The position numbers were made by a program, and so were the translations under genes. DNA of 54,038 bases, from contig JAGXRP010000067.1 of NCBI GenBank assembly GCA_018335795.1, positions 1-54,038 on the forward strand. The letters are read 5' to 3'. The notes beneath the pieces are model-generated. The model saw only the letters and a list, made by a program, of their open reading frames with translations. It ran no database searches and was not told where the DNA came from. The number at the start of each line of letters is the position of its first letter. Position 1 is the stretch's first letter. Shown in pieces: positions 5,243 to 32,869 of this stretch. Source of the stretch: Desulfobulbaceae bacterium (lineage in GTDB: Bacteria > Bacteroidota > Ignavibacteria > Kapaibacteriales > UBA2268).

Positions 5243-6997
5243 ATGATATCAATAATGAAAAAAGATAGTAGAGTTGATACATTACAAGTTAATTGTTTGA
5301 GCCATCAAACTTTTGAATATGCTATACTTTTGCTTATGTTGCTCCTTTTATCATCTTATTCCAAAGCAGAAACAGACACATTAAAATGGGTATTTACCGG
5401 AAATACAAGTTTATCCTCAGACTTTTATTCAATCAATTCAACTCCCGAAAACAGTATCAATCGCCGCCGCCCGACAGATTTGCACAGATTATTGTATAAT
5501 TCAAATTTGAAATACGGAATTTTTGAGTTGCCTATAACAATTGTACTATCTTCCAATCAGACAAACTTCACAACTCAAGCACCTGGAACGCAAACATTTA
5601 TGCAATATTTGCAGAATCCCATGAATATAATTAGAATTGCTCCTCGAATTGGAGACCTGAACCTTCAGTTTGGCTCATTCGTCCCGCGTTATTCCGAGCT
5701 TTCGACCGGGAATTCCAATGTTTTCGGGCTTGGGGCTGAATACACTCCAGATAATCTTGCAATTTCGGTTTTTTACGGCATATCACAACGAGGGGTCGAA
5801 TCCGATACTACTCGCGGAATTCGTGGGGCATATGAACGGCGGAGTTTGACTGCTCGATTGCATTACGGAAGCAAACGTACAGGGCTTATCGGCATAAACG
5901 TGGTAGCAGCTGAAGATATCGAAAGCTCTGTGAAATCGCCAAGTGCTGAACTGTTCCCTGAAAGAGGCTTTTTGACAACGATTAATTTCATCGTGCCATT
6001 CACAGAAAGGATATTCCTTGAAGGCGAAGTAGGTGGTTCACTTTTCACTCGAAACACTCGAGACAAGGAAATCGAAGACAATGGTTTAGAATTCTTGTCG
6101 GTTCTGACACCGATAAAGACTTCTACTCGAGCTGATGGAGCAGGAAGACTGAAATTCGGAATTGAATATGATAAGTGGGGAATAGCAGCAAATGCGCTTT
6201 ACGTGGGCGACGGATATGTGCCTATGGGATACAGATTTTTCATGTCGGACAGATTGGAATTGACTTTGATGCCGAAATTACGACTTTTCGACGGCACTAT
6301 TTTCCTTTCAGGTTCGATTGGTACACGCATTAACAATCTATCCAACACAAAATCCCAGACAAGTGAGCAATTGTTGGCATCCTTAAATTCTGCCATTCGA
6401 TTTACCGATTATCTCAGTCTCAATGCCGGATATTCAAACTTTGGATTCCGGAACAGGACTGATAATGACACGCTGAAAATTGATGTTATTTCAACCTCAT
6501 TTAATCTCTCGCCAAATTTAATTTTACGCGGACAAAAGCTTATTCATTCGATTACGCTAAGTTTTGCTTTCGACGATTACAAAGATTACAACACTTTTAC
6601 AACTGCAATCAACGAAAATTCAACTCGTAGCATAACCGGAGTTCACGTAATCAATTTCACCGAAATGCCTTTGACCACAGATTTAACGCTAATGCAACTC
6701 ACAAACGACATCAAGCCGTTCGAGCTAAGTATATACTCGATAATTGCAGGTGTAGCTTACCGTTTTTTCGACAATACGCTCAATCCATCATTGAAAATTT
6801 CATACAATAACACAAGTTACGCAGGAGCCGGCTCGGATAATTCAATCGGATTTCGGGCAAAAGTGGCTTATATATACAACAAGAGTTTGACTTTTACTGC
6901 AGAGGCATCATCTAACCAATACTCGTACGGAGAATTGCGGAGCAATGCTTCATTTGGGGAAACTTTCGTGCGGCTTATGGTTGCATCAAGATTTTAG
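5243..6997 (+). CDS. Predicted outer-membrane beta-barrel, first gene of giant-protein operon
   Basis: A 584-residue protein with an unusually long, polar N-region before a hydrophobic signal segment (residues about 27-44, ending SYSKAET). The rest consists of alternating amphipathic strands with many aromatic girdle residues, and the chain ends in ...VASRF, the terminal phenylalanine expected for BAM-inserted barrels. I cannot name a family. An alternative start is the ATG at 5255 (MKKDSRV); no good ribosome-binding site favours either. A TAnnTTTG box (TAATTTTG at 5164-5171) may be the promoter. It is followed after 27 bases by the 2828-residue coiled-coil protein gene and then by the FN3 protein gene, so it may be their outer-membrane anchor or export partner (inference). 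Confidence 0.75.
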   Translation: MISIMKKDSRVDTLQVNCLSHQTFEYAILLLMLLLLSSYSKAETDTLKWVFTGNTSLSSDFYSINSTPENSINRRRPTDLHRLLYNSNLKYGIFELPITIVLSSNQTNFTTQAPGTQTFMQYLQNPMNIIRIAPRIGDLNLQFGSFVPRYSELSTGNSNVFGLGAEYTPDNLAISVFYGISQRGVESDTTRGIRGAYERRSLTARLHYGSKRTGLIGINVVAAEDIESSVKSPSAELFPERGFLTTINFIVPFTERIFLEGEVGGSLFTRNTRDKEIEDNGLEFLSVLTPIKTSTRADGAGRLKFGIEYDKWGIAANALYVGDGYVPMGYRFFMSDRLELTLMPKLRLFDGTIFLSGSIGTRINNLSNTKSQTSEQLLASLNSAIRFTDYLSLNAGYSNFGFRNRTDNDTLKIDVISTSFNLSPNLILRGQKLIHSITLSFAFDDYKDYNTFTTAINENSTRSITGVHVINFTEMPLTTDLTLMQLTNDIKPFELSIYSIIAGVAYRFFDNTLNPSLKISYNNTSYAGAGSDNSIGFRAKVAYIYNKSLTFTAEASSNQYSYGELRSNASFGETFVRLMVASRF

Positions 6998-7024
6998 TGC
7001 TAATTTTCTAAGGGAGTTTGAATT

Positions 7025-10000
7025 ATGAGAAAATTATTATCAATTTCCTTGCTTTTATTGGCAAGCATTATCGCAAGTTCTTACGGACAATTGAACGTAC
7101 AGTTGGCTATTTCTCCCAATCCCTCGCCCTACCTGTCGGATTGGCAAGAGAGACGCGAAACGGCAACGATGATAATCACAAACTCATCTTCAGACCAATT
7201 TTTTGTAAAGTTGCATACTCGAATATATCAGGGCGGATTCTCGGACGGAGCTTTGCAAGCTCAGACGATTACCGAGAAAATGCCTGTGATGTTCATAGAG
7301 CCGGGTGTCACCGTTTTAGATGCCACAGAAATGATCCCATATGAATCAATGGAATTTTACGGACATGTAAATGAAGTTGTGATTCGAACCGGAAAATTAC
7401 CTGCAAATAATTATACTATTTGTATTCAACTTTTAGATGCTGAATTGAACGAGCCACTGACGCAAGACCAATGTCGGCAGTTTTTCATCACAGATTATCA
7501 GGGTCCGACATTGCTATTACCGGAAAATTTGAGCGAATTGAAGCCAGAATCAGTGAGCAATATAATTTTCCGATGGACTCCTGTAGTTCCGCAGCCTTTC
7601 GAGCCGGTTACATACACAATCGCAGTGTTTGAAGTATTGCCAGGGCAATCGCCCGATATGGCTTTTCAAGCAAATTTTCCGATTCTAACCAAAGAGGCAA
7701 TGAATACGAATTTTACTCTTTGGACTCCTGAGTTCGATTATCCGCAACCGGGAATGCAGTATATTTGGAGCGTTCGGGCAATTGATTCGCGTGGTAATCC
7801 ATTAGGACAGAACGACGGTTGGGCAGAGCCATTCATATTCAATGTAACGGAGCGTAGCAGCGGATTTGGTAGCAATTGTTCGTGCGAAGATATTAAGAAA
7901 GCTATTGAAACTCGAGATTGCAAATCATGCTATTCGATCGAAGTGGAAGGATTGCTGATTGATATTAATTGCGGTGTCCCGATTTACCTAACTGAGGTAA
8001 ATTCCTTTGTCACAGCTAAAAGTGATTTCCCAACTGAGTGTGGTGAGCACAGTTGGCTGCTAACGGGAACAGTATTTAAACCCAATCCTGAATATTTGAC
8101 AACTGATGCAAATGCTTCTCAATTTATTACAGAACAAATTGAAATTCCGCTCTCGAATTCAAATATTGCAAACTTTGAGAGTTTTGGGTGGGGCAAATTC
8201 GAGCTTATTCATTCAATTAATGGTCTAACTGTTTCACGATTTTCATTTTTCTCGGACGAGCCTCCAAGCGAAGAAATTCCAATTGCTAAAGGAGGTCATT
8301 CAATAAAAATTATCAGCCCGCAAGATGCTTGTATCGGCTCTGTTGTTAGTGACGTTGTTGATGGCTTGGTAACAATCACTTGGGAATCAACAGGAGAATT
8401 CGTTGATTTCGAGGTGGTAATTTTGGAAAATCCCTGCGGTAGATACCGTTATCCTGTTCCCGGAATAGAGCCACCGATAAAAGTTCCTGCTATGTCGCGT
8501 GTGCCCTACGAAGGAGAAATTGATAGTGGCGGTGAAGGTGGCGGTGGTGACGGTGTTGTTCGTGAAGTACACAAAGAAAAAGTCACTGGTCGCGAAACAC
8601 GTTCGGATTGGAGTACGACAAATTCGGTAGTTGTGCCGCTGGCCGAATTTCTTGATGGAGGGGATGCATTTATCGTACAAATTGAGGGCAATGCCACATC
8701 AACAGACGGCGAAGTTTTTTTGGTTTACTCCGAACCGATTTGTTCCAGATATCGCCCTTTGAATCCGGAAGGAATTCCCGTGGAATCTACTCCTTGTTAT
8801 CCACCGCATCACCCTGATAATGCGTGCATGCCCAAAGTCACGACTTTGCCCGGAAGCGAAATCTCGCTTGGCGTTTATGTAGAGGACAATCAATTATTCG
8901 AATATCCGCGCGCAGTGGCTATGACTGCCGATGCAGTTGATTGGGATATCGTAGAAGTGCAATGCAATCCAAATGATAAATGTCCCGAATCACGAAGCAT
9001 GGAGCAATTCGCAGTTCGTGATTTTGTAAGCCCAAATCAATACAAATGGGAACTCATCGGCAAAGGTTCGCTCAATGACCCATTCGATGTCGGGAATATT
9101 ACTCAACTAACTGATGATATAAATGATATAATCAAAAGAATTGCAGAATTGAAAGAGCGTATTGATTCGTTAAATAAAGCAAAAGATTTACGTGTTAGCA
9201 CTCTTAAAATTCAGCAAGAAAACGCCGAAAAGCAAATCACAATCACAGATAGCGCTATCAAAGTGTTGAGAGATTCGTTGATTACTATTACTCGAATATT
9301 GACTGAAAAACGAGACAGCTTGACAATCATCATAAACGAGCGGATTGCCTTGAGTGATAGGATTATTTCTAAGCGAGATTCGGTTGACGGTGTGGTTTTG
9401 GATTCCATTTCATATTATGACGAACTCCTGTTAAACAAGCCAAGTAGCTACGAACTCGGACTATACGATGAAATTGCGGACGCTCGAGATGAAGTTGATG
9501 ACGGGCATAAAGATTTGCGGCAATCTCAAACAGATCTTGCCGACGAAGCAAAGCGATTGCAGGATGAAATTATTCAGGCATCTAATGCCGTCAAGACCCA
9601 ACAAGATGTTGTCAATAATATCAACTCTCAGATAGAGGGAAATCAGCAAAGAGTAATATTCTTCGAGCGGCAGGCATATAAATTATTTGGTTCATTCGCT
9701 ACTGTTGCACGGAATTATATGCGTGAACGCGACCAATACCGCCGTTCAATGAGCAATTTCATCATTCAAAATTTTGACCAAGGAAGCGATATTCACGACA
9801 CACTATCGAATATTTTCCAATTTGCCGATAATGTAGCCGAAGACCTTATTGGCTCGACAAATCAGCAATATCGAATGACTCGACTCGCTCTATTTGATTC
9901 GCTTAATGTATCGTTTTCAAATTTAGCCGATGATAGTTGCCGTGCTAAATCTGATTCATTGCGTCGTGCTTTATGCTCCTCATCTCTTACTTTTGTTTCG

Positions 10001-13000
10001 AGTTCATATACATTATATCGCCAAGCGTTGAATTCCGCAATTGTACAGAATTTTGTTGTTGACACATCTGCGATTGACAGCATTAAAAAGTACAGGAATA
10101 TAGTTCGTTCTTTAGAGCCACAACTTAAAGCAGCCAAAATTCAGTTGGAACAAACCTTTGATGCTTATAATCAAGCATTAGAAAATGATTCGACAACAAT
10201 TGCACAAATTGTAGAAGCCCAAAAAGCCCTCAAAGACTCGATTACCGCTCGAGAACAACGATTGTCAAAGCTGGAAACAGAATTACGCGATACTGTAAGC
10301 AACCGAGAAGAGACATTTACCAATAAACGCGTCGAATTTGTTGACCGGAAAGCCTTCCACGAAGAATTGCGTCAAATGACAATTATTGATATTTCACGCT
10401 TGAGCGATACAGTCCAAGTGAAAATTTCGGATTCGACTGTCTGCATTACGGAGATAATCAAAATCCAAAGTGACAGCACCATTATCGAACGCGATATTAA
10501 AATTCAAGAAGATTTGCTCAAATCGCTTCAAGATATTCTTGCGCTCGATTCGAATGACATCAAAAAAGAAATTGATGACATGATAAGCAAACTCGAAGAC
10601 GATATCAAAGCGTTAGAAGACAAACTGAAGGCATTGAAGGACAGCTTGAACGTAAGTTTCGCCGGCACAAAAACGGCAACGGGTCCCAAAGTTTATTATA
10701 TCCCGCCACCCTTGGAAGATATAATGAAAGATAAAGCAAGATTTGAAGAGTTAAAAGATTCAGTTGCCAAAGCCGAAACAGACTTATTATTGGCAAAAGC
10801 CGAAAAAGAAGCAGGGCAAAAACAATTGGCGAGAATGCTGGAGAGAATCGGTCGCTCTTTGATTCAATACGTTAATGCTGAGGAAAAAATCAGCGAGCTG
10901 GAAGATGCTAAAAAAGAGGCTGAGGACAAACTTGGCGAAGATGATGAAGAATCCCTAGAATATGGCGAAAGATTAGACGGAATCCGCCAAACGGCTGAAT
11001 CTGCCAAGAATACATCCGAGCAAAAACTCAATGATTTGGACCCCGACAAAATTAAAAGCGAGCTTGTTGTTATCAATCAGGACATCGTGACTAAGAAAAT
11101 TGACGTTGCGGACGCACTCAATGATTTCAACGATTCCTACCTTGATTTGATAGACAAATCCTCCAATCTCGGTCAGTATCGCAAACAATTGCAAGCATTG
11201 ACAAAGCAATATGAATCAACGCTCGACCGTGCAAATGAATTAAAAACAGCACTCACTCAATCACAAAATGAAGTTGCCCGAATTCGTGCTTTGAATGATT
11301 ATGCAAGGGCTCAAGATGCAAAGGCTGATTTGGATAAAAATGAACAAGCATATAAGAAGCAACAAGATAAAATTCAGCTTTTGGTAACTGCAATTCAAGT
11401 ATTACTTCAAAATCACAATAATACGACAAATCAACAATCCGACGCCGAAGATGAATTCATGGAAAAAATCGGCAAAGTAGCCGAGAAAATGCAAGAATTG
11501 AGTGAATTATTTGATAATTATTTCGAAAAATGGAATGAATATCAGGCAGAAAAATTGCAAGTGGCGCATTGGAAAGTAACGAAAGTAAAAGCTGAAGACC
11601 TCGAAAGTAAAGTAAATGATGCCGAAGCCAAACTCAATCAGATGAAGAAAACTGACAGCCTTGATAAGCAATTCGACTTGACAAAAGTTGATGATGAATT
11701 GAGGAAATATCAAGATGCAAAATCTAATGCTGATTCGACTATTGCAGAAATTGTCAGAAAAGGAAAGGAATTGCTCGATGAATGGGATGATAATATCGAA
11801 GATGCCGAAGACAAAGTTGTTGAAAAAAAGGAAGATTTGCGGCAATTCTTATTGAATGAATTTAATACCGTTGACCTCAGAGTTCAGCTCAAAGTTACTG
11901 TAAATGATGATGTTATTGACGGATTTCGTTTCGATGATAGTGAAAAAATCAAAACGAAAGAACTAAAATATATGTCCAAACGAGAGCCGGTATTTGATAG
12001 TGAATACCCGGAAGTATCTGCTCCACCGGTTGATAAAAAAGGTGGTGAATGTTTAGTACGATATAATTTTGATAAAGACCCACCAATCACAGCAAGCGAC
12101 CCCACTTTCTTCAGAAAGGAACCACGTACAATTGCACTTGTTTACAAAAATGGCGAGCCGCTATGGGCCCAATGGCCCGTAATCGAAAATTCTGCTCCAA
12201 CGCTGTCTAAAGATATTGTTATTATGGCAGGAAATGCACAAGATACTGATGATTTCTCTATTACCTGCCGTACTGATTGCGAAACGAAACCTATAAAGGA
12301 TGGAATTGTTGAATTACCCAAATATATCTGGCGTGGCGATGGGAAATATTATCAGATTAATACTGCAAATTTGGAACATCAAGTCCTTGCTTATTGGGAG
12401 CCGCCGGATGTACCTCAACCATTTTGCGAAAAGGATTTTGAGGTTGTTAATGACTTTCGGGCTGCTCGGAAGGGACCCGATGACGATGTCTTGGACAAAA
12501 AGACTAAACCCTTGATTGTACCGGGAGTATTGATTGAAGTACCAGAAAAGTTGATTGGGTGGTCTGAAAAGAAAGATTCAATCAAAGCGAGAATCGTCAA
12601 AGGCGACCACACAGGGCTCCCGGGGGAAAAAATCGAATATTCAGTCACTCTGCTCGAGGGTCGCTCCGAAGATTACGGATTTCCTACTGATACGGTCAAA
12701 GTCGTTACAACCGATGGCGACGGTTATGCACCAATTGAATTCAACTACGGCAAAGGTTTTGCAAGATTTGAAATCAAAGTGAAATGGTTCCGAAAAGATA
12801 CATGCGAAATCAAAATAATCGAAGTGGAATCGCCACTCAAGATTCAAATGCTCCGATTTGCTTCTGGATTGAGCAAAGAGGCTTTAGATGGCGCCATGGA
12901 AATATGGGATGGTGCATCGGTGCAAGACATAGCCGCTACAATGAGCACTGATGACGAAAAGAGAATCTACGGAATTGCTGGTTTGTTCGATAATTATCCG

Positions 13001-15511
13001 AATTTTATCAACGAAGAGTATATCAATTACGAGCTTGACGACCCGAAACTCGCTGTTGACCCTGATTCTGTCGAAACTTCATTATTCGGCATTGCCGTCA
13101 CCTATGTAGATGGTGATGTCCCCGAAAATGCAAAATTGGAGTTGACTGCACGTTGCGAAGAAGTTTTCGAATTAATCGCAGACCCGTATGAAGATTCGAT
13201 GGAGTTAAATACCACAAAAGAAGACCGATTCAAAATCGGCATTGATAAGTCAATTTTTACTATTGTGATGGATGAACCATTCACAGTTGGTGAATTGATA
13301 AGCGGCACAGGAAAACTTGAAATTGCTCCGGGTGGGCTTAATCCGGCATTTTTGACTCAACTTCTGAATATAGTTTTAGTCGCTGACGAAGTCTTTGTCG
13401 AAAATGAAGGGCAAGACATTGTAGCTCAATCCGGTAGAGTAACATGGGAAGCACCGGACGGCTTATCGGCAGATTTGCCGGGTTTCAAATTTACATTAGA
13501 TTCGCTGTCTTTGCGAGCTAAGCAAGCTGCTCAAATGGGAGGAAAAATTTCAAGTTCAAGCGACAAATTGCCTCACCCCGTTGGATTCGACGCTGAATTA
13601 TATTCTGACGGTGAATTTTTCGGGAATGTATATAATTTACCGGAAATTAATGTTTCATCTTTTAGATTAAATCAAGGAACTTCTCTCGCAATTGATTGGT
13701 CGAGCACTCGTTCTGTTGCCGGATTTAGCAATGATTTCAAGGGAATCGTAATCCGAACTGCAACTTTGGAATTCCCCAATGTATTCTCTCGGGAAAATTC
13801 GCCCGATAAAATGGCTCTAATTGTGGATAATTTTGGAATTTCAAGAGAGGGTGTTCAAGGCACGATTGCCCTAAAAGGTGAAGTAACGGGAGGATTTGCA
13901 GGCTTTGAAATGAAATTGGAGCAAATTGCTCTTGAATTCGAAATGGGTAAATTAAATCCGAAAACAATCACACTCGAAGGCAATCTCACTCCACCTGCAA
14001 ACATCGTAGATGGTACAATTGCATTTAAAATCACCAAATCAGGCGATGATTGGATTGGCGAAATGACGACCAAGGGTGAAATTCTCGTTCCTTCAATCGG
14101 ATTAACCATTGCATTAAATGACGGTACAAAAGCAGGATGGAATACAGCCAAAGAGGAAGGTTCCTTGCTTGTCAACGGAATGTTTAAGTCCCGATTTACA
14201 GGGGAAATAGAGTTAGAAAATCTGAAAATTACATCCGGTGGAGAGATTGACGCCGATGCTGTCCGTGTGAAAACTGATGCAGCACTCGTTATTCGCGGCT
14301 TCAATCTCAATCTTGATGAAGTGGCTTTAGTTCGAGTTTCGGGCGAAGGCTCTACATCTCAGTATGCAATCGAAGTCTCAGGTGGATTCGGATTCCCGAG
14401 TATTCCGGTCAAGAAAATCGAAGGCAAATTAATCGTTAGCCCGGGATTGAAAATCGCAGTCGAAGTTTCTGATGCGGAAATCTCATTCGAGTATGGTCCG
14501 GTCGAATTTAGCGGGAAAGTGCAATTTGGGAATAATTATTTCAAAGGCGATTTTGATGTCGGACTTAAGCAGCCCAAATTCGGGCTTAAATGCTCTTTCA
14601 TAATTGGTACACAAGAAATTGATTCGGTTAATTTTTTCACTTATTGGTATGCAGAAATGCAACTTGCATTGGGAGCGACAGGCATTCCACTTGGAAGTAC
14701 AGGGCTTGCTATAACAAGGCTCGGTGGCGGAGTGGGCTGGAATTATGACCCGCCGGTCGGATCGCAGGAAGGGGCACCTCGTAAAACAGACGGATTTGCA
14801 TTTAAAGCCCTGATTGGCATTGGTACTGTCCCGGGTGGTAAATTCTTGAATTGTCTCTTCACGATGGTCTATACTCCTTCTAAGTTTTCGCTCGGTGGCA
14901 AGTTATGGCTGCTCGAACAAGAAGATAATATTTTCGCTGAAGGTGTTCTTAATCTATATTTTGACACTCAATCTCCAAACGCTATTGATGGTTTCGTCAA
15001 AAGTTTTGTAGGAATTCCTGATGCTGAGGGCAAAATTGTTCGATTAGACGGAAAAATTAATTACAAAATTACTCGCAGTGGTAGTATTAATATTGAGAGC
15101 GAAACACTCAATGGCGCATTATTAGATTTATTAAAAGCCGAAGGAACGATTGTAATTAACGAAAATGTTATTGATTTGAATGGACGAATATTTCTCGAAT
15201 TCTACAATGATGATATTAGCGTGGCAGGGATTTTAACATTAATTGTAGATTTCAAAGCCGAAGCATCTGGGTCGTTCAAATATTTGGTGAAACAAACGCG
15301 GCTGTTTGCAGGAGTGAAATTTGAAGGACACATTGACATCAATCTCGATACTCCATTTGGTGTTGCCGATATTTTATCTGCAAATGCTCTAGTAAATATG
15401 CAATTAGACGCTCGCCCCAATCGTATAGAAGCTCGCGGATTTGCGTTTTTCTCTTATAGTGCATGGATATACAGTGGCAATGCTAAAGTAGATTTTGGTT
15501 TTACAATTTAA
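7025..15511 (+). CDS. Giant secreted TANFOR-like/coiled-coil protein
   Basis: A 2828-residue protein with a clear signal peptide (residues 1-22, ending SSYGQ). Residues about 23-280 resemble the TANFOR-type N-terminal module of large Bacteroidota surface proteins: a strand-rich domain with SPNPSPYLSDW and LPANNYTICIQLLD, followed by an FN3-like domain ending QYIWSVRAID. A cysteine-containing segment (NCSCEDIKKAIETRDCKSCY) and a glycine-rich linker follow. Residues about 694-1612 are dominated by charged heptad-like helices (coiled coil), broken by an aromatic helical stretch at about 877-1018 and a proline-rich segment (YYIPPPLEDI) near 1222-1231. Residues 1613-2828 are beta-rich with no family I can name; the G-rich GLAITRLGGGVGWNYDPP motif near residue 2560 weakly recalls DUF6603. 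No T9SS sorting domain is seen at the C-terminus. GGGAG precedes the start; the next gene begins 15 bases after the stop. Confidence 0.85.
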   Translation: MRKLLSISLLLLASIIASSYGQLNVQLAISPNPSPYLSDWQERRETATMIITNSSSDQFFVKLHTRIYQGGFSDGALQAQTITEKMPVMFIEPGVTVLDATEMIPYESMEFYGHVNEVVIRTGKLPANNYTICIQLLDAELNEPLTQDQCRQFFITDYQGPTLLLPENLSELKPESVSNIIFRWTPVVPQPFEPVTYTIAVFEVLPGQSPDMAFQANFPILTKEAMNTNFTLWTPEFDYPQPGMQYIWSVRAIDSRGNPLGQNDGWAEPFIFNVTERSSGFGSNCSCEDIKKAIETRDCKSCYSIEVEGLLIDINCGVPIYLTEVNSFVTAKSDFPTECGEHSWLLTGTVFKPNPEYLTTDANASQFITEQIEIPLSNSNIANFESFGWGKFELIHSINGLTVSRFSFFSDEPPSEEIPIAKGGHSIKIISPQDACIGSVVSDVVDGLVTITWESTGEFVDFEVVILENPCGRYRYPVPGIEPPIKVPAMSRVPYEGEIDSGGEGGGGDGVVREVHKEKVTGRETRSDWSTTNSVVVPLAEFLDGGDAFIVQIEGNATSTDGEVFLVYSEPICSRYRPLNPEGIPVESTPCYPPHHPDNACMPKVTTLPGSEISLGVYVEDNQLFEYPRAVAMTADAVDWDIVEVQCNPNDKCPESRSMEQFAVRDFVSPNQYKWELIGKGSLNDPFDVGNITQLTDDINDIIKRIAELKERIDSLNKAKDLRVSTLKIQQENAEKQITITDSAIKVLRDSLITITRILTEKRDSLTIIINERIALSDRIISKRDSVDGVVLDSISYYDELLLNKPSSYELGLYDEIADARDEVDDGHKDLRQSQTDLADEAKRLQDEIIQASNAVKTQQDVVNNINSQIEGNQQRVIFFERQAYKLFGSFATVARNYMRERDQYRRSMSNFIIQNFDQGSDIHDTLSNIFQFADNVAEDLIGSTNQQYRMTRLALFDSLNVSFSNLADDSCRAKSDSLRRALCSSSLTFVSSSYTLYRQALNSAIVQNFVVDTSAIDSIKKYRNIVRSLEPQLKAAKIQLEQTFDAYNQALENDSTTIAQIVEAQKALKDSITAREQRLSKLETELRDTVSNREETFTNKRVEFVDRKAFHEELRQMTIIDISRLSDTVQVKISDSTVCITEIIKIQSDSTIIERDIKIQEDLLKSLQDILALDSNDIKKEIDDMISKLEDDIKALEDKLKALKDSLNVSFAGTKTATGPKVYYIPPPLEDIMKDKARFEELKDSVAKAETDLLLAKAEKEAGQKQLARMLERIGRSLIQYVNAEEKISELEDAKKEAEDKLGEDDEESLEYGERLDGIRQTAESAKNTSEQKLNDLDPDKIKSELVVINQDIVTKKIDVADALNDFNDSYLDLIDKSSNLGQYRKQLQALTKQYESTLDRANELKTALTQSQNEVARIRALNDYARAQDAKADLDKNEQAYKKQQDKIQLLVTAIQVLLQNHNNTTNQQSDAEDEFMEKIGKVAEKMQELSELFDNYFEKWNEYQAEKLQVAHWKVTKVKAEDLESKVNDAEAKLNQMKKTDSLDKQFDLTKVDDELRKYQDAKSNADSTIAEIVRKGKELLDEWDDNIEDAEDKVVEKKEDLRQFLLNEFNTVDLRVQLKVTVNDDVIDGFRFDDSEKIKTKELKYMSKREPVFDSEYPEVSAPPVDKKGGECLVRYNFDKDPPITASDPTFFRKEPRTIALVYKNGEPLWAQWPVIENSAPTLSKDIVIMAGNAQDTDDFSITCRTDCETKPIKDGIVELPKYIWRGDGKYYQINTANLEHQVLAYWEPPDVPQPFCEKDFEVVNDFRAARKGPDDDVLDKKTKPLIVPGVLIEVPEKLIGWSEKKDSIKARIVKGDHTGLPGEKIEYSVTLLEGRSEDYGFPTDTVKVVTTDGDGYAPIEFNYGKGFARFEIKVKWFRKDTCEIKIIEVESPLKIQMLRFASGLSKEALDGAMEIWDGASVQDIAATMSTDDEKRIYGIAGLFDNYPNFINEEYINYELDDPKLAVDPDSVETSLFGIAVTYVDGDVPENAKLELTARCEEVFELIADPYEDSMELNTTKEDRFKIGIDKSIFTIVMDEPFTVGELISGTGKLEIAPGGLNPAFLTQLLNIVLVADEVFVENEGQDIVAQSGRVTWEAPDGLSADLPGFKFTLDSLSLRAKQAAQMGGKISSSSDKLPHPVGFDAELYSDGEFFGNVYNLPEINVSSFRLNQGTSLAIDWSSTRSVAGFSNDFKGIVIRTATLEFPNVFSRENSPDKMALIVDNFGISREGVQGTIALKGEVTGGFAGFEMKLEQIALEFEMGKLNPKTITLEGNLTPPANIVDGTIAFKITKSGDDWIGEMTTKGEILVPSIGLTIALNDGTKAGWNTAKEEGSLLVNGMFKSRFTGEIELENLKITSGGEIDADAVRVKTDAALVIRGFNLNLDEVALVRVSGEGSTSQYAIEVSGGFGFPSIPVKKIEGKLIVSPGLKIAVEVSDAEISFEYGPVEFSGKVQFGNNYFKGDFDVGLKQPKFGLKCSFIIGTQEIDSVNFFTYWYAEMQLALGATGIPLGSTGLAITRLGGGVGWNYDPPVGSQEGAPRKTDGFAFKALIGIGTVPGGKFLNCLFTMVYTPSKFSLGGKLWLLEQEDNIFAEGVLNLYFDTQSPNAIDGFVKSFVGIPDAEGKIVRLDGKINYKITRSGSINIESETLNGALLDLLKAEGTIVINENVIDLNGRIFLEFYNDDISVAGILTLIVDFKAEASGSFKYLVKQTRLFAGVKFEGHIDINLDTPFGVADILSANALVNMQLDARPNRIEARGFAFFSYSAWIYSGNAKVDFGFTI

Positions 15512-15526
15512 ATATTTGGTGAAAAA

Positions 15527-17548
15527 ATGAAAAAGTTAATTTTAATGTTTATATTTTATTCAATTGCAATTTTTTCGCAAGACCCTGCATATTTAATTTT
15601 CAGAAATTCAGGAAATGTTTATCTTAAATGGGAATATTTGCGAGATAATAATCATGAGCATTACAATATTTATCGGCAATATGAAAATAGTGATACATGG
15701 GAACAAATAAATCCAAAACCACTTAAATTAATTACAGATATTGACGAAATTGTTTATATTGGCGGTGAATATTATGGCTCTATTTATTTATCATTAATGG
15801 GTGTCAAACGAGAAAAACGAGATATTACAAAATCGGATATCATCGCTTGGCAAAATAATGCAGAGGCTTATTCAATGTTGAACGCACTGTCGGTCACTCA
15901 GCCGTTGATTTCCGAACTAACAGGCACTTCATTTCTCGACACGCCCGAATCCCGTGCTCGAGTTCGGTATAAAATTAATTCCATCAGAGCAGCAGATGAA
16001 TTACATTATATCACAAGTGAGTTTATTGACACGAAAATTGATGATATTGTGCCCACTCCCGAGGATATTTCAATCAAACCGCTAAATAATTCCGCAAGTA
16101 TTATTTGGGCACGAAGTTTAGACGTATTGCAATCAGGGAGAGCTGTTAATTTTAATATTTATCGTGCAGATAATATTACCGGTCCATATTTAATTGTAAA
16201 TTTTGCAGATATGTTCCAAGGAGTATTAACGGGAGAAGAAGTCGAAGTTGATACAAATTATTTCAATTTTGTTGATGATAATTTAATTAACGGAAAAACA
16301 TATTATTATTATTTAACGGGAGTAAATACCTTTGGCTTTGAAAGCCAACGTACTTCGGTCTATGAAGTTGTTCCGTCGGATAATCGTGTCCCTATGGCAC
16401 CGGGAGACATTACAATTAATGAATTTGGGGGCAGACTGAAATTATCTTGGAGAAATATATCTCGTGTCAGACCAATAGGTTACGAAATATTTAAATCTAT
16501 TGGTGATACTGACAATTTCGTAAAAGTTTTTCCTACTTTAGACGCTCAATATGATGCCACAATTACAACTTGGACTGATGCTGATGTCCGTGAAGGCGAA
16601 TTCTACAGTTATTATCTCGTAGCAATAGGTCAAAGCGGGGCACGTAGTGAGACATCCGATACTCTCACTTTTATTATTGATGATTATATTCCGCCTGCTG
16701 CACCGGTCGGCGTTGTGGCAGTCGGGGATACAGGCGCTATCAAGCTAAGTTGGGAGGCTAATACCGAACATGATTTGCTCGGCTATCAAATTGAGCGCTC
16801 ATCCGATTCGAGATTTGCCACACGTTTTCTTGTAACCGACAAGCCAATTACGGGAACTGAATTTATTGACACCGTGCGTCGCGAGTCCCAAAGCGATATT
16901 GCATATTTTGTTTATGCTCTCGATAAAAGTTACAACCGTTCACTTCCATCGGAGCGTGTCATAGTGCGAGTAATTGATGTTGTGCCGCCATTGACGCCAG
17001 AAATGACAAGCATTTACGAAGAGGATGACAAATATTTCGTCAATTGGACAAAATCTCCTGATAATGACTTGAAAGCCTATCGTTTGTATCTTTCAATCGG
17101 CGATTCGAGCAGTTTTACTCTCAAAACCGAAACTACTTCCCTCTCTTTTTCTGACCGAATCAGCGAACGCAAAGAGCATTTTTTCAAAGTTGTCGCGGTA
17201 GATTTGTCCGGAAATGAATCTCTTTTTTCACGAATCAGACGGCTTCAAATTGAGGACGAAACACCACGACCACCGGATTCGGTTCAAGTAATTCAAGAAG
17301 AAAAATATGTCAATATCGAATGGAAAGCGCCTGAAGACGAGCGTGTAGTGGGATTCTTCATTCAGCGCAATTATGCCGAAAAAGGCAGCCCGATGGTTGA
17401 TTTGGCTGTCTTGAAAGCTGATAAAAGCAGATTCATGGATTGGGATGTTGATATAACTCGCGAATGTACTTATTATATCTACTCTCGCGACGAAAAATGG
17501 CGTTTGAGCAAGCCGGTAATAATAAATTTCGGTCCCAAATCAAAATAA
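15527..17548 (+). CDS. Secreted protein with tandem fibronectin type III domains
   Basis: A 673-residue protein with a signal peptide (residues 1-18, ending IFSQD). After a first strand-rich region come about five consecutive FN3-like domains at roughly residues 185-285, 290-385, 390-490, 493-580 and 583-673, recognised by repeated patterns such as KLSWEANTEHDLLGYQIER, FVNWTKSPDNDLKAYRLY and NIEWKAPEDERVVGFFIQR. FN3 arrays act as spacers or protein/carbohydrate-binding modules on the cell surface. No catalytic domain and no T9SS sorting domain are visible. It starts 15 bases after the giant coiled-coil gene and is almost certainly co-transcribed with it and with the upstream barrel gene, which suggests the three work together at the surface (inference from context). 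Confidence 0.82.
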   Translation: MKKLILMFIFYSIAIFSQDPAYLIFRNSGNVYLKWEYLRDNNHEHYNIYRQYENSDTWEQINPKPLKLITDIDEIVYIGGEYYGSIYLSLMGVKREKRDITKSDIIAWQNNAEAYSMLNALSVTQPLISELTGTSFLDTPESRARVRYKINSIRAADELHYITSEFIDTKIDDIVPTPEDISIKPLNNSASIIWARSLDVLQSGRAVNFNIYRADNITGPYLIVNFADMFQGVLTGEEVEVDTNYFNFVDDNLINGKTYYYYLTGVNTFGFESQRTSVYEVVPSDNRVPMAPGDITINEFGGRLKLSWRNISRVRPIGYEIFKSIGDTDNFVKVFPTLDAQYDATITTWTDADVREGEFYSYYLVAIGQSGARSETSDTLTFIIDDYIPPAAPVGVVAVGDTGAIKLSWEANTEHDLLGYQIERSSDSRFATRFLVTDKPITGTEFIDTVRRESQSDIAYFVYALDKSYNRSLPSERVIVRVIDVVPPLTPEMTSIYEEDDKYFVNWTKSPDNDLKAYRLYLSIGDSSSFTLKTETTSLSFSDRISERKEHFFKVVAVDLSGNESLFSRIRRLQIEDETPRPPDSVQVIQEEKYVNIEWKAPEDERVVGFFIQRNYAEKGSPMVDLAVLKADKSRFMDWDVDITRECTYYIYSRDEKWRLSKPVIINFGPKSK

Positions 17549-19799: not shown

Positions 19800-19807
19800 T
19801 ATCTTTG
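19800..19807 (+). promoter_or_regulatory. Bacteroidota-type -7 promoter box upstream of beta-helix gene
   Basis: TATCTTTG matches TAnnTTTG and lies about 30 bases before the start chosen for the downstream gene. It overlaps the in-frame TTG at 19805, which would be a poor translation start if transcription begins near 19814. No convincing -33 element was found. Confidence 0.45.
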
Positions 19808-19837
19808 TACAAATTTTTCAAGAAAAAGGTGATGAAA

Positions 19838-21325
19838 ATGAAAAATGTTACTTTATGTGCTATTCTTCTGGTGTTTGCAATGGCGAGCGTTTTGGGTGCG
19901 AGAACCTTGAAAGTGGGCGCTTCGTATGAATTTGCAAGCTTTACCCAAGCAGCAAATCAAGCTGTCGCGGGCGATACGATTTTGTTCTTCGATAGCCCGA
20001 TTACTCAGTCGAGCTATATTTCTAACCTACGTGGTACTGCGGATTTGCCTATTGTGATCACTTCCGGCACGGGCGATTACATCTTGTTCAGCGGTGGTGG
20101 CAGTGCTTTTCAATTGTCAAATCCGACAAATTTGCATATTTCGCGATTGGCATTCGAAGGGCAAACCCAAAATGGAGTCAATATTGATGACGGTGGCAAC
20201 TTCAGCAATCCGGCTCTCAACATCACTTTTGATGATTGCAAGTGGCTCGGGATGAACGCAAGCGGCAATAATGATTGTTTGAAAATGTCTGGTGTTGTGA
20301 ATTTCACTATCACTAATTGCAACTTTGCGAATGGCTCCGCAGGTGGGAGTATCATTGATATGGTCGGGTGCCACGAAGGAATTATCGAAAATAATGTTTT
20401 CCGAAACGGTGGCTCAAATTCTATCCAAGCCAAAGGAGGTACGAAAAATATTCGAATATCTCGCAACTTATTCATTAATGGTGGTTTGCGTGCTTTGAAT
20501 ATTGGCGGTAGCACCGGAATGGAATATTTCCGTCCGCTTGATGCTCCTGCCGAATCGGAAGAAATTATAGTCTTTGCGAACATATTTTTCGGTTCACAAG
20601 CTCCTTTTGCATATGTCGGGACGCGTAATTCAAAAGTCATAAATAATACAATAATTAATCCAGAAAAATGGGTGATTAGGATTTTACGCGAAAATAATGA
20701 TGCTCAGATGGAATTTGATGCTGGGAATGAATTTTCTAATAATATTGTCTATTTGTCTAATGCGGCTGCATCTCCCTCTATAAATATTGGTCCAAATGCA
20801 TTATCCGAATCATATTCATTCCGAAATAATCTATGGTATAATCATGAAAATGTTGATTGGATATCCCCAAATGTTCCGGTTTCCGAATTAAACAGCATCC
20901 GTGGCATTGACCCACGGTTTACAAATTTGGCGGATTCTAATTTAATTCCCGAGCAAAATTCTGTAATAAAAGGGGCAGCTTACGTAAATAATTACGCTAA
21001 ATATGATTATTTCGGCAACAAATTCAGCAACCCTCCCTCGATAGGTGCTATTGAGATAGATGCAAATAGTATCGAAGAAAATAATATTTCTGCAAATATA
21101 ATAATTAGTCCAAATCCTGCTCAAAATTCAATTAATATTAATTATAATAATAATTCAAAATATTATATAGAAATAATTAATATTACCGGACAAATAGTAA
21201 TTGAGCGAAGAGAAATAATTTCCAATGAAAATATTGATATTTCACATTTGGCAAATGGAACTTATTTGGTATTAATTGAATCTGATGGCAAAAAGATTCC
21301 AAAACTTTTTATGGTTAATCGTTAA
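19838..21325 (+). CDS. Secreted right-handed beta-helix protein with T9SS sorting domain
   Basis: A 495-residue exported protein. The signal peptide is MKNVTLCAILLVFAMASVLG-ART. Residues about 25-400 show the repeating N/G-rich rungs of a parallel beta-helix (NITFDDCKWLGM, NFTITNCNFANG, GIIENNVFRNGG, NIRISRNLFING, SKVINNTIINP), the fold of pectate lyase/chondroitinase B-like enzymes and of some adhesins; I see no firm catalytic set. The last ~80 residues form a type A T9SS C-terminal domain (IIISPNPAQNSININ... ending KLFMVNR), so it should cross the outer membrane by T9SS and be attached or released. The start was chosen at 19838 because AAGGTGAT lies just upstream; the ATG at 19832 and the TTG at 19805 are alternatives. 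Confidence 0.85.
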   Translation: MKNVTLCAILLVFAMASVLGARTLKVGASYEFASFTQAANQAVAGDTILFFDSPITQSSYISNLRGTADLPIVITSGTGDYILFSGGGSAFQLSNPTNLHISRLAFEGQTQNGVNIDDGGNFSNPALNITFDDCKWLGMNASGNNDCLKMSGVVNFTITNCNFANGSAGGSIIDMVGCHEGIIENNVFRNGGSNSIQAKGGTKNIRISRNLFINGGLRALNIGGSTGMEYFRPLDAPAESEEIIVFANIFFGSQAPFAYVGTRNSKVINNTIINPEKWVIRILRENNDAQMEFDAGNEFSNNIVYLSNAAASPSINIGPNALSESYSFRNNLWYNHENVDWISPNVPVSELNSIRGIDPRFTNLADSNLIPEQNSVIKGAAYVNNYAKYDYFGNKFSNPPSIGAIEIDANSIEENNISANIIISPNPAQNSININYNNNSKYYIEIINITGQIVIERREIISNENIDISHLANGTYLVLIESDGKKIPKLFMVNR

Positions 21326-25164: not shown

Positions 25165-27516
25165 ATGTATACTCTTCTGAAAAAAAGCTTATTGCTGTCT
25201 TTGATTTTAACGCTCTTTTCATCAATTTCCACATACTCTCAAGCTCTTTTCATCAACGAAATTATGTCGTCAAACAATAAGTTTTACTTTGATGAAGATG
25301 GCGACGATAGCGATTGGATTGAGATTTATAATAATACTTCATCGCCAATCAATTTGATGGGATATTGCCTGTCTGACAAAGCAAAACAACTCCAACTATG
25401 GTGTTTCCCGGATACTTCAATAGCGGCATACGGGTATCTGGTGGTATTTGCATCGAGCAAAGACCGAGCAATTAAGGGAGCAGAATTGCACACAAATTTT
25501 GCAATCACAGCCGCTGGTGAAGATTTGTTCCTGACATTTGATGGCAAAATTGTTCATATGCTGCCCGCAATAGCGTTACAATCAAACCAAAGTTATGGTT
25601 TGTTTCCTGACGGCAGCAGTGAGATGTACATATTCTCGAATCCAACTCCCGGCGAAACGAACTGGTATCAAGCTCCGGTTGAAGAGCTGACATTCTCTCA
25701 TCGTGGCGGAATTTATGATAAAATATTCGCACTGACATTAGAGAGCAAGCATCCGATGAATAAAATTTATTTCACGACTGACGGAAATGACCCGACTGCA
25801 GCCTCGCTATTATATGAGGCACCTTTGATGTTGAATGCCTTTTTGCACTCCCAGAAAAATATTTCGCAAATAAAAATTTCGCCCCCTGAATTGCATAAGC
25901 CCCCTATAATAGATTCTGTACCCAAAGCGATAATAATCAAAGCTGCAGTTTTCAATTCAGAAGGTAATAGAGTCAGCGATATAGTCACTAATACCTATTT
26001 CATCAAAGCACTTGGTATTAATCATCATGATTTGCCTATTGTATCGCTTTCTGCAAACCACAAAGACTTATTCGATGAGCATGTAGGAATTTTAGTTCCG
26101 GGAGCCACCTGGGACCCAACTAATCCAATTTGGACTGGAAATTATTTGTTTAGAGGGGAAAGTTGGGAACGCGATGCATACGTAGAATTTTACGAGCCAA
26201 ATGATGTAGTTGCTATTAAACAAAATGTAGGATTGAGAACTCATGGAACATCTTCAAGACTTAAACCACAAAAGGGACTGAAAATATATGCCGGAAGTAA
26301 ATATGGATTTAGTAAATTTAATTACAAAATTTTTAATGAAAGGGAGACAAATTCATTTAATTCTTTAGTATTAAAACCTTTTTCTGCCTCTTGGGGTTTT
26401 ACAGGGGTTGAAGACTTAGTATCCAATAAAATTTTAACAGCGCTGAATGTTGATGGTGTAATGTCACGTCCTATTGTATTATATCTAAATGGGGAGTATT
26501 GGGGGATTTATTTTATCTCAGAGCGAATTGATAAAAATTATTTAGAGACTTATCATGATGCTGACCCAAATCAAGTTGATATTATTGGTACTTGGTGGGG
26601 AGATGTTCTAGATGGTGACAATGTGGATTTTTTAGATTTATATGATTTTGTTAGAAGAAATGACCTAACAGTATATGATAATTTCAAGAAAATTTCTGAA
26701 CTTCTGGACATTGATAATTTTATTGATTATCAGATTTTTCAGATTTATGTTGCAAATGTTGATTGGCCTACTAATAATTTCAGATGTTGGCGTTCAAAAT
26801 CTACCGGTAGTAAATGGCGATTTGCTTTTTATGATGGTGATGCTTGTTTGATTAGAAATACTTATGATATGTTTGAACATGCTACCGATACTTCTGTTAA
26901 GCACTACCCAACAAATGCAGAGGTAACGCTATTTTTCAGAAAATTATTGGAAAATGATGTTTTTTATAATAAATTCTTTTTGCGTTTGGAAGAAGTTTTG
27001 AATGAACATCTATACTATAACAATACTTCAGTTTATTTTAAAATTGCCAAACAATTTCTCGAGCCGGAAATTCATAAACAAATGAACCGTTTTACCATTC
27101 CTGAAAATTTCGATTATTGGTTGGGTAACATGGAAGTTCATAATCATTTCTTATCATCGAGAAGCTGTTTGATAAAATCTCAGGTTTTTGAGAAGTATGG
27201 AATTGATTTAAAACTAATCGAATGTTTGCCTGATAATGTGGAGGATGATTTGGCTTATGGGCAGAATTTTGGTATCGCTCCCAATCCATCATCAGGTAGC
27301 TTTAGAATCGAGTTCACGCCTCAACATTCAGGCAATTATGAATTTTATCTTTTGAATATGTTGGGCCAAAAGACACCTTTGGCAAATGAATATTTATATA
27401 GTGGTATTCCTCATAGGTCATATCACAGTATTGATGCGCCAACAGGAGTTTATCATTTGGTAATCCAAGGTGAGAAAGAAAATCAAGTCGAAAAAGTTCT
27501 AATAAGAAATGAATGA
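25165..27516 (+). CDS. Secreted lamin-tail / CotH-like protein with T9SS sorting domain
   Basis: A 783-residue surface protein. After a signal peptide (residues 1-26, ending STYSQA) come a lamin-tail domain (about 27-165; LFINEIMSSN, DSDWIEIYNNTSSPINLMGYCLSD), a chitobiase-C-terminal/FN3-like domain (about 170-285; KIYFTTDGNDPT) and a CotH-type domain (about 290-660; RTHGTSSRLKPQKGLKIYA, GEYWGIYFISERIDKNYL, KWRFAFYDGDACL). CotH proteins are atypical protein kinases known from Bacillus spore coats; in Bacteroidota they occur in large secreted proteins. The last ~85 residues are a T9SS sorting domain (FGIAPNPSSGSFRIEF). The kinase activity of this member is untested. From about 26140 onward the gene looks more AT-rich than its N-terminal part. 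Confidence 0.85.
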   Translation: MYTLLKKSLLLSLILTLFSSISTYSQALFINEIMSSNNKFYFDEDGDDSDWIEIYNNTSSPINLMGYCLSDKAKQLQLWCFPDTSIAAYGYLVVFASSKDRAIKGAELHTNFAITAAGEDLFLTFDGKIVHMLPAIALQSNQSYGLFPDGSSEMYIFSNPTPGETNWYQAPVEELTFSHRGGIYDKIFALTLESKHPMNKIYFTTDGNDPTAASLLYEAPLMLNAFLHSQKNISQIKISPPELHKPPIIDSVPKAIIIKAAVFNSEGNRVSDIVTNTYFIKALGINHHDLPIVSLSANHKDLFDEHVGILVPGATWDPTNPIWTGNYLFRGESWERDAYVEFYEPNDVVAIKQNVGLRTHGTSSRLKPQKGLKIYAGSKYGFSKFNYKIFNERETNSFNSLVLKPFSASWGFTGVEDLVSNKILTALNVDGVMSRPIVLYLNGEYWGIYFISERIDKNYLETYHDADPNQVDIIGTWWGDVLDGDNVDFLDLYDFVRRNDLTVYDNFKKISELLDIDNFIDYQIFQIYVANVDWPTNNFRCWRSKSTGSKWRFAFYDGDACLIRNTYDMFEHATDTSVKHYPTNAEVTLFFRKLLENDVFYNKFFLRLEEVLNEHLYYNNTSVYFKIAKQFLEPEIHKQMNRFTIPENFDYWLGNMEVHNHFLSSRSCLIKSQVFEKYGIDLKLIECLPDNVEDDLAYGQNFGIAPNPSSGSFRIEFTPQHSGNYEFYLLNMLGQKTPLANEYLYSGIPHRSYHSIDAPTGVYHLVIQGEKENQVEKVLIRNE

Positions 27517-32814: not shown

Positions 32815-32869
32815 GTTTTGATAATTCAAGTGATAAAATCCAAATTGAATGAACTAAATCCATTATATA

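Follow-up and report, generated by a model that had tools for sequence, protein, structure and literature searches.

A conserved pairing of an outer-membrane barrel with TANFOR-family giant proteins in Bacteroidota, with a frequent FN3 companion gene

How would a protein of 2828 residues cross the outer membrane, and do the genes beside it encode the means? This question is raised by a three-gene locus in a 54,038-nucleotide stretch of a Kapaibacteriales genome (contig JAGXRP010000067.1; the whole stretch is called the window here), in which genes for an outer-membrane barrel, a giant protein and a fibronectin type III (FN3) protein follow each other. Genome comparisons gave good support for a pairing of the barrel with the N-terminal domain of the giant, which by profile comparison is of the TANFOR type. 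Our favored reading, to which we give a probability of roughly 0.45, is that the barrel docks the TANFOR domain, exports the giant and anchors it, the locus being a two-partner outer-membrane module plus a helper gene. The locus comprises the following features.

5243..6997, + strand: predicted outer-membrane beta-barrel, TANFOR partner, 584 residues (ATG open reading frame, AlphaFold2 model, family alignment, co-occurrence, fusions)
5243..6997, + strand, first ~45 residues of the product: signal peptide of the barrel (by eye)
7025..15511, + strand: giant protein, 2828 residues (ATG open reading frame; long relatives in other families)
7025..7087, + strand: signal peptide of the giant, residues 1-21 (by eye)
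7088..7864, + strand: TANFOR-type N-terminal domain, residues 22-280 (alignment of 41 domains, hhalign)
7865..9094, + strand: residues 281-690 of the giant, no Pfam match (composition)
9095..11704, + strand: putative helical, coiled-coil-like segment, residues 691-1560 (Pro+Gly content, hydrophobic period)
11705..15508, + strand: beta-rich C-terminal region, residues 1561-2828 (alignment of the window protein with six relatives from other families)
14282..15508, + strand: remote resemblance to DUF6603 (PF20248), residues 2420-2828 (hhalign, shuffled controls)
15527..17548, + strand: FN3-array protein, 673 residues, frequent third member of the module (ATG open reading frame, Pfam on relatives, neighbor counts)

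The three open reading frames (ORFs) and their conserved order are real. An earlier sequence-only reading of this DNA had reported three adjacent genes, and their coordinates and sizes agree, with 27 bases between the barrel and giant genes and 15 bases between the giant and FN3 genes. Inspection revealed a Sec-type signal peptide at the start of all three proteins. This order is found again across further genera, families, orders and classes and is therefore beyond chance. The sequence-only reading would have been refuted by homologues that are not neighbors elsewhere; this test came out in its favor, as the gene order proved to be conserved in other genomes. A second copy of the set is located on a different contig of the same assembly (G000, locus L032) and encodes a barrel of 632, a TANFOR protein of 1666 and an FN3 protein of 726 residues.

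The coupling of barrel and TANFOR domain was apparent in a sample of 119 genomes including the window's own. The N-terminal domain (N-domain) was found in 69 genomes, the barrel in 70 and both in 68, corresponding to 68 of the 71 genomes with either one. Unpaired exceptions were G093, which carried the N-domain alone, and G038 and G086, which carried the barrel alone. Fisher's test returned 1e-29 for this co-occurrence, a value made optimistic by shared ancestry. When the whole giant was used as query, most of the 69 matches covered the N-domain only, and long matches to the rest of the protein were obtained in six genomes outside the genus (G060, G063, G064, G068, G076 and G100).

A phylum sample of 296 genomes, 25 in the window's order (counted from the listing) and 271 outside it, displayed the same coupling. 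Barrel hits with an E-value up to about 5e-41 were classified as strong. Among the 271, TANFOR was present in every one of the 49 genomes with a strong barrel, and a strong barrel occurred in none of the 192 TANFOR-less genomes. With weak hits included, 69 of the 271 genomes had both, 10 TANFOR only, 41 the barrel only and 151 neither; some of the weak hits belong to another barrel family of 800-930 residues. Among the 70 strong barrels outside the order, 48 were located at most 1.5 kb from a TANFOR gene on the same strand (TANFOR being the downstream gene in 45 cases), a further 16 lay within 20 kb of one and 6 had no TANFOR nearby, in a distance test that ignored TANFOR hits weaker than about 1e-21 and left fused partners with weaker matches uncounted. 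Five of the 70 were themselves fused to TANFOR.

Such fusions were found as single ORFs in eight genomes, each with TANFOR followed by the barrel (L173-L180, among them L175:1509-4352 and L179:4122-6809). The TANFOR match of L178 and L180 comprises the second half of the domain only, and L179 (G020) belongs to the window's own family. Both ends of an outer-membrane barrel face the periplasm. Taken together with this topology, the order TANFOR-then-barrel would place the TANFOR domain in the periplasm or inside the barrel lumen.

Furthermore, the two partners diversified in parallel. Barrel distances and TANFOR distances correlated with r 0.884 over 57 linked pairs, a value reached by 0 of 2000 permutations; these loci were selected for the test and each yielded a pair, and partial, duplicate and reversed-order loci (e.g. 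L042, L052, L146, L151) were excluded. Nine genomes carry two or three linked pairs each, and all 15 comparisons within these genomes favored the real partner over a swapped one. Nine of the 15 came from three genomes of one genus, and the margin was only 0.01 in G222 and G140. The pairing of barrel and TANFOR is well supported by these data, and the phylum-wide link and the eight one-ORF joins lend weight to the earlier suggestion of a possible anchoring or export function of the barrel for the giant.

Which kind of barrel is it? The AlphaFold2 model calculated from a 27-row alignment reached a predicted local distance difference test score (pLDDT) of 84.6 and displayed 26 strand elements, including one of just 4 residues. 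The first strand begins at residue 50, directly past the signal region, and the C-terminal residue is Phe. Identification of the first gene as an outer-membrane barrel by the sequence-only reading agrees with this model. The closest fold in the PDB was MtrB (6r2q_B; Z 20.7, root-mean-square deviation 4.7, 458 residues aligned; next entry Z 16.7). MtrB also ranked first for a second model based on a different but overlapping 21-row alignment (Z 16.9 versus 14.1). FimD and PapC were matched as well with Z 14.6-15.0, below MtrB; the barrel had no match to the usher family in Pfam, and no chaperone was found among the scanned neighbor genes. The gene product is predicted to be a wide, MtrB-like pore of 26 strands.

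No sequence-family match of the barrel above threshold was obtained in Pfam or among PDB sequences. Its sole Pfam match at E <= 0.5 was PF13505 with 14.1 bits, which is below the cut-off. Assignment by sequence to PorP/SprF, MtrB/PioB or type Vb barrels was rejected on these negative Pfam and PDB-sequence searches, and a phage or mobile origin of the window barrel was rejected after tblastn against a phage collection gave zero matches. The three window proteins contain no CXXCH motif.

The first ~280 residues of the giant are the portion common to most relatives. Cys133 and Cys150 are invariant across 41 aligned N-domains. Comparison of the 41-domain profile with four domains from three genomes, themselves TIGR02542 hits (E 2e-8 to 7e-6), yielded an hhalign probability of 99.9% and an E-value of 5e-32 over 263 columns, which confirms the TANFOR-like N-terminus that had been suspected. 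Moreover, TIGR02542 was the sole NCBIfam family to match the 41 N-domains: 14 of them hit it at E <= 0.01, the best with 1.8e-13. The window N-domain alone scored 16.7 bits and the whole giant 12.6, the curated cut-off being 67. Across the 296 phylum genomes TIGR02542 had matches in 8 and none above its cut-off, so that the curated model is far narrower than the family, and it was discarded as a family probe for this reason. Judged by the profile comparison, the N-terminus of the giant belongs to the TANFOR family.

Behind the TANFOR domain, residues 691-1560 have a Pro+Gly content of 2.6% compared with 12-16% in the other five segments of the giant. The strongest hydrophobic period was 3.45-3.60 in five of six 140-residue windows (residues 701-1540), and weak matches to the coiled-coil parts of SMC and Rad50 models were obtained. 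These features fit a helical, coiled-coil-like segment and are in line with the roughly 900 mostly coiled-coil residues described before. Over the C-terminal ~1270 residues, six relatives from other families can be aligned right up to the C-terminus with 30-40% identity, in agreement with the C-terminus of about 1200 residues proposed earlier. As this part is common to six relatives, it does not behave as a polymorphic tail here. Neither Pfam nor NCBIfam matched a toxin domain in the window giant. In view of this and of the shared C-terminus, we class it as a TANFOR-family protein and not as a recognized toxin. The closest named record for the C-terminal part is the metagenome-assembled genome (MAG) 'Ignavibacteriae bacterium HGW-Ignavibacteriae-1' with 93% identity, and a 'Candidatus Kapaibacterium' MAG with 39% identity is among seven loci that carry it. 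A window-type giant is also present in L150 (JAGFIZ010000062.1), which is titled as a Bradyrhizobiaceae MAG; this title or the binning is probably wrong.

The last ~400 residues provide a lead to DUF6603. Comparison of residues 2420-2828 with PF20248 by hhalign resulted in a probability of 57 and an E-value of 1e-4. The score of 51.2 compares with at most 35.1 for 30 block-shuffled controls and 23.6 for the reversed sequence, and with 18.5 to 23.5 against three unrelated alignments. PF20248 had no hit in the window's own genome at E <= 10, and no paper on DUF6603 was found in the literature searched. True DUF6603 proteins with open frames of 1177-1689 residues are encoded in two genomes that also carry a window-type giant (G060:C64; G068:C93 and C108), in both cases on contigs different from that of the giant. 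In G060, two consecutive TANFOR proteins are located between the barrel and the FN3 gene, the window-type giant being the second (L033:14230-16770 and L033:6175-14226), and G068 may have the same arrangement split across two contigs (L039, L038).

The third gene, for the FN3 protein, is common at these loci. An FN3 array had been proposed from the sequence; 14 of 26 relatives match PF00041, which supports it, while Pfam matched nothing in the window protein at E <= 0.01. An FN3-type protein was encoded within two ORFs of TANFOR at 29 of 39 loci from the same order; in other orders or classes the count was 13 of 20. The corresponding numbers for the barrel were 29 and 17, and for barrel and FN3 together 22 and 13. 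The loci were picked from search hits and not at random, one of 40 same-order loci had no TANFOR ORF, and the counts are lower bounds since picking of the longest ORFs missed the barrel beside L164, which the distance test did contain. With these frequencies the FN3 protein appears as a frequent but dispensable partner; its proposed partnership stands as a common one and falls short of a universal one. In the portion of the study by Jana et al. considered here, Fn3 (COG3401) is listed among the domains enriched beside TANFOR genes (PMC7073777).

If the N-domain is what the barrel recognizes, which parts of these proteins vary? The segment behind TANFOR differs between loci. Proteins of 277, 289 and 286 residues consist of TANFOR only (L061, L158, L053), and the first two adjoin a barrel. 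This minimal pair points to the N-domain as the constant part and to the C-terminus as payload. L040 carries an eCIS_core/DUF4157 payload (42.7 bits against a cut-off of 22), with a similar HELTH motif seen by eye in L039, and L066 has RCC1 repeats. CarboxypepD_reg domains were matched in 5 of 20 giants scanned with Pfam, and TANFOR open frames reach about 6400 codons.

Plasmid matches were confined to Bacteroidota, with 2 records for the TANFOR domain and 4 for the L155 barrel. On pEMTOL03 of Emticicia oligotrophica DSM 17448, a barrel annotated as hypothetical protein, a TANFOR-profile protein with a WHH nuclease domain (42.5 bits, cut-off 25.1) and a SUKH-1 immunity gene are consecutive (L215:13881-24397). 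A toxin of this kind would need to exit the cell. The Emticicia protein is TANFOR by our own profile only (E 2e-27). NCBIfam returned no match at E <= 0.01 for the first 500 residues of this protein, the first 400 of its Runella counterpart and the first 500 of the L040 protein, and all three are counted as TANFOR by our profile alone. WHH with SUKH-1 is a published TANFOR toxin architecture according to the text considered (PMC7073777). On Bergeyella porcorum plasmid pQD2021 (L217:13729-15281) the barrel matches fall into two short ORFs among many small ORFs, and the gene therefore looks broken.

We propose the following mechanism for the module. Guided by its signal peptide, the giant would be exported to the periplasm by Sec. 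The TANFOR domain would dock inside the wide 26-strand barrel or beneath it, and the barrel, whose gene directly precedes that of the giant, would act as exit and anchor, analogous to MtrB holding MtrA in 'stalled' export. The C-terminal payload could then be displayed on the surface or released from it, with the N-domain either kept as an anchor or released as well. In some Bacteroidota this payload would be a nuclease toxin; in the window it would be the ~870-residue helical segment together with the beta-rich, DUF6603-like end. The FN3 protein may be a surface or periplasmic companion. Adhesion, a stalk or filament and cell-cell contact, the roles offered by the sequence-only reading, are candidate roles. 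Docking of TANFOR to the barrel is likely, and we infer the direction of the payload, its surface location and export through the barrel rather than through the type IX secretion system (T9SS). The broader proposal is more tentative than the module itself: an undescribed, T9SS-independent export and display system of Bacteroidota, in which an MtrB-like 26-strand barrel recognizes TANFOR and moves or anchors giant payloads including toxins, the Kapabacteria payload being a non-toxic rod with a beta-rich end.

A route other than T9SS had been suggested by the sequence-only reading, which saw no sorting domain in the three proteins. This absence was confirmed with Pfam and NCBIfam at E <= 0.5, and a Pfam scan of 20 giants and 26 FN3 proteins detected no T9SS sorting domain at E <= 0.01. 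With SprA encoded in the genome, participation of T9SS is still conceivable.

Several observations weigh against a barrel-dependent export module. In the window, neither an immunity gene nor a toxin domain was found. Ten of the 39 same-order loci lack a barrel within two ORFs of TANFOR, these ten genomes carrying the barrel elsewhere. Few first-look candidates were scored per genome (2 in the whole-giant search of the 119 genomes, up to 11 for the barrel in the same set, 8 and 4 in the phylum searches), which makes single absences uncertain. Simple linkage alone could produce the co-diversification, and fold likeness alone demonstrates no function. An artificial read-through fusion of the window barrel and N-domain, modeled from 21 rows, gave pLDDT 75.6 and a predicted template modeling score (pTM) of 0.65, with two folded parts; a pTM of this size does not speak for a reliable arrangement of one part relative to the other. 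Almost every genome has a T9SS at its disposal, SprA being above cut-off in 117 of the 119 genomes; being near-universal in the order, it does not discriminate between the explanations. The protein upstream of TANFOR in L077 contains SprB repeats and Por_Secre_tail, the barrel of this locus being about 10 kb away. An SprB repeat is present inside the Emticicia TANFOR protein, and a 945-residue FN3 protein of L154, outside the 26 scanned, has a sub-cut-off Por_Secre_tail match. T9SS cargo beside TANFOR genes was reported by Jana et al. in the text considered (PMC7073777).

The last points lead to the main competing explanation, in which T9SS exports the giant through an unconventional signal, the barrel serving only as a later anchor, like SprF/PorP-like barrels with type B cargo. 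SprA in almost all relatives and the cargo-type neighbor in L077 speak for it. Moreover, the parts considered of the respective papers report T9SS in >95% of the genomes with TANFOR and an enrichment of T9SS cargo among the neighbors of TANFOR genes (PMC7073777), and describe PorP-like barrels that bind type B cargo, two type B substrates needing a cognate shuttle for secretion (PMC9143113, PMC12618676). However, SprA is also encoded in those of the 119 genomes that have neither barrel nor TANFOR and thus fails to explain their joint distribution, no sorting domain was matched by Pfam in the 20 giants, and the barrel lacks a Pfam match to the PorP/SprF family. We consider this explanation unlikely, if the most serious of the alternatives.

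Distinctly less probable is a giant that never leaves the periplasm; fixed to the barrel, it would form a long spacer or scaffold that bridges the outer membrane and the cell wall or inner membrane. Such a role would suit the long helical segment without a recognized toxin, the Sec signals, which by eye are the only ones on the three proteins, and the fusions, in which TANFOR is N-terminal to the barrel and would lie in the periplasm or the lumen. WHH/SUKH-1, RCC1 and eCIS_core/DUF4157 payloads make more sense outside the cell, and frames of about 6400 codons would be very large for periplasmic proteins. The fusions also resemble an N-terminal plug, and together with the MtrB-like fold they would be compatible with a barrel that is a conduit or uptake channel, the TANFOR protein being its plug or regulator rather than a passenger. 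A second locus class with a larger barrel, a FecR-domain protein and a CHASE2-cyclase looks like signaling or transport and points the same way, but the length of the TANFOR partners, their varied payloads, the missing CXXCH motifs in the three window proteins and the toxin-immunity arrangement in Emticicia all argue against it, and of the explanations weighed here it is the least probable.

The second locus class (L181, L182, L183, L191) encodes a TANFOR-only protein of 356-407 residues, a protein of 232-249 residues and a barrel of 815-906 residues weakly related to the window barrel. The 232-249-residue protein carries a FecR domain in L182 and L191, the two scanned, and a CHASE2-guanylate-cyclase protein is encoded in the same two loci, with an M50 peptidase on the other side in L182. 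L192 has the neighbors of this class and no TANFOR call. Taken together, the class looks like an envelope signaling or transport operon.

In the window, the locus is flanked upstream by hrcA and, on the opposite strand, by a gene read by eye as mannose-1-phosphate guanylyltransferase; a CoA-ligase-type gene lies directly downstream of the FN3 gene. T9SS cargo encoded nearby, as claimed before, was verified by three Por_Secre_tail matches, the one at 25165 below cut-off. The respective genes encode a beta-helix protein (19805-21325), a CotH-kinase/lamin-tail protein (25165-27516) and an M43 peptidase (27729-29006). A multi-PAS hybrid histidine kinase with receiver domain is encoded at 30037-32829 on the minus strand. 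Ten terminator-like sites (11.8 expected) and 49 sigma-70 promoters (36.0 expected) were counted; these numbers provided no basis for delimiting operons.

How does the module relate to known systems? TANFOR was described in 2020 by Jana, Salomon and Bosis as the delivery end of Bacteroidetes polymorphic toxins (TIGR02542), whose route across the outer membrane was left open, with T9SS as a guess, in the text considered (PMC7073777). The statement that no named system has this composition therefore needs qualification: the literature searched yielded no named system for the barrel or the three-gene set, whereas the N-terminus of the giant belongs to a named family. The word 'barrel' occurs 0 times in the main text of PMC7073777, and no description of the barrel was found in the literature searched, the supplements of that paper being outside the search. 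Like TANFOR toxins, the window giant combines an N-terminal TANFOR domain and a Sec signal, seen by eye, with large size, a changeable C-terminus and frequent Fn3 neighbors; it differs in lacking a recognizable toxin or immunity gene and belongs to a lineage far below the TIGR02542 cut-off. A barrel that shares the distribution and diversification of TANFOR and in some genomes is fused to it offers a concrete gene for the question of how TANFOR toxins leave the cell. It may be the missing exit door or anchor of TANFOR giants and provides a handle on many very large unannotated proteins of Bacteroidota.

GfcD was considered from part of its description (PMC11494523) and set aside. MtrAB supplies the best fold match: MtrB is a 26-strand sheath around the cytochrome MtrA, and the assembly is viewed as 'stalled' export of MtrA in the part of the paper considered (PMC7198977). 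Both barrels would hold a second protein, but the window barrel has no Pfam match to MtrB/PioB and its partner no heme motifs. PorP/SprF barrels with type B cargo are similar in that, according to the text considered, the cognate barrel often adjoins the large surface protein that it binds (PMC9143113, PMC12618676). In contrast, the window barrel is of another sequence family and no type B sorting domain was found on the giant. DUF6603 proteins share a beta-rich segment with a similar GG-G-N motif, the giant resembling them only by profile (57%) and without a Pfam hit.

Contact-dependent inhibition (CDI) by type Vb systems relies on CdiB, CdiA and CdiI, with a 16-strand barrel carrying POTRA domains and an N-terminal two-partner secretion (TPS) domain on the giant. 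The window barrel differs by its 26 predicted strand elements and leaves no room for POTRA domains, and the N-terminal domain of its partner is unrelated; Pfam matched no TPS or haemagglutinin domain in the window giant, and none is included in the 21 families detected across 20 giants. The gene order on Emticicia pEMTOL03 is the same as in CDI, namely a barrel, a giant with an N-terminal recognition domain and a C-terminal toxin, and an immunity gene. If our proposal is true, the barrel-TANFOR module would resemble contact-dependent inhibition built from unrelated parts.

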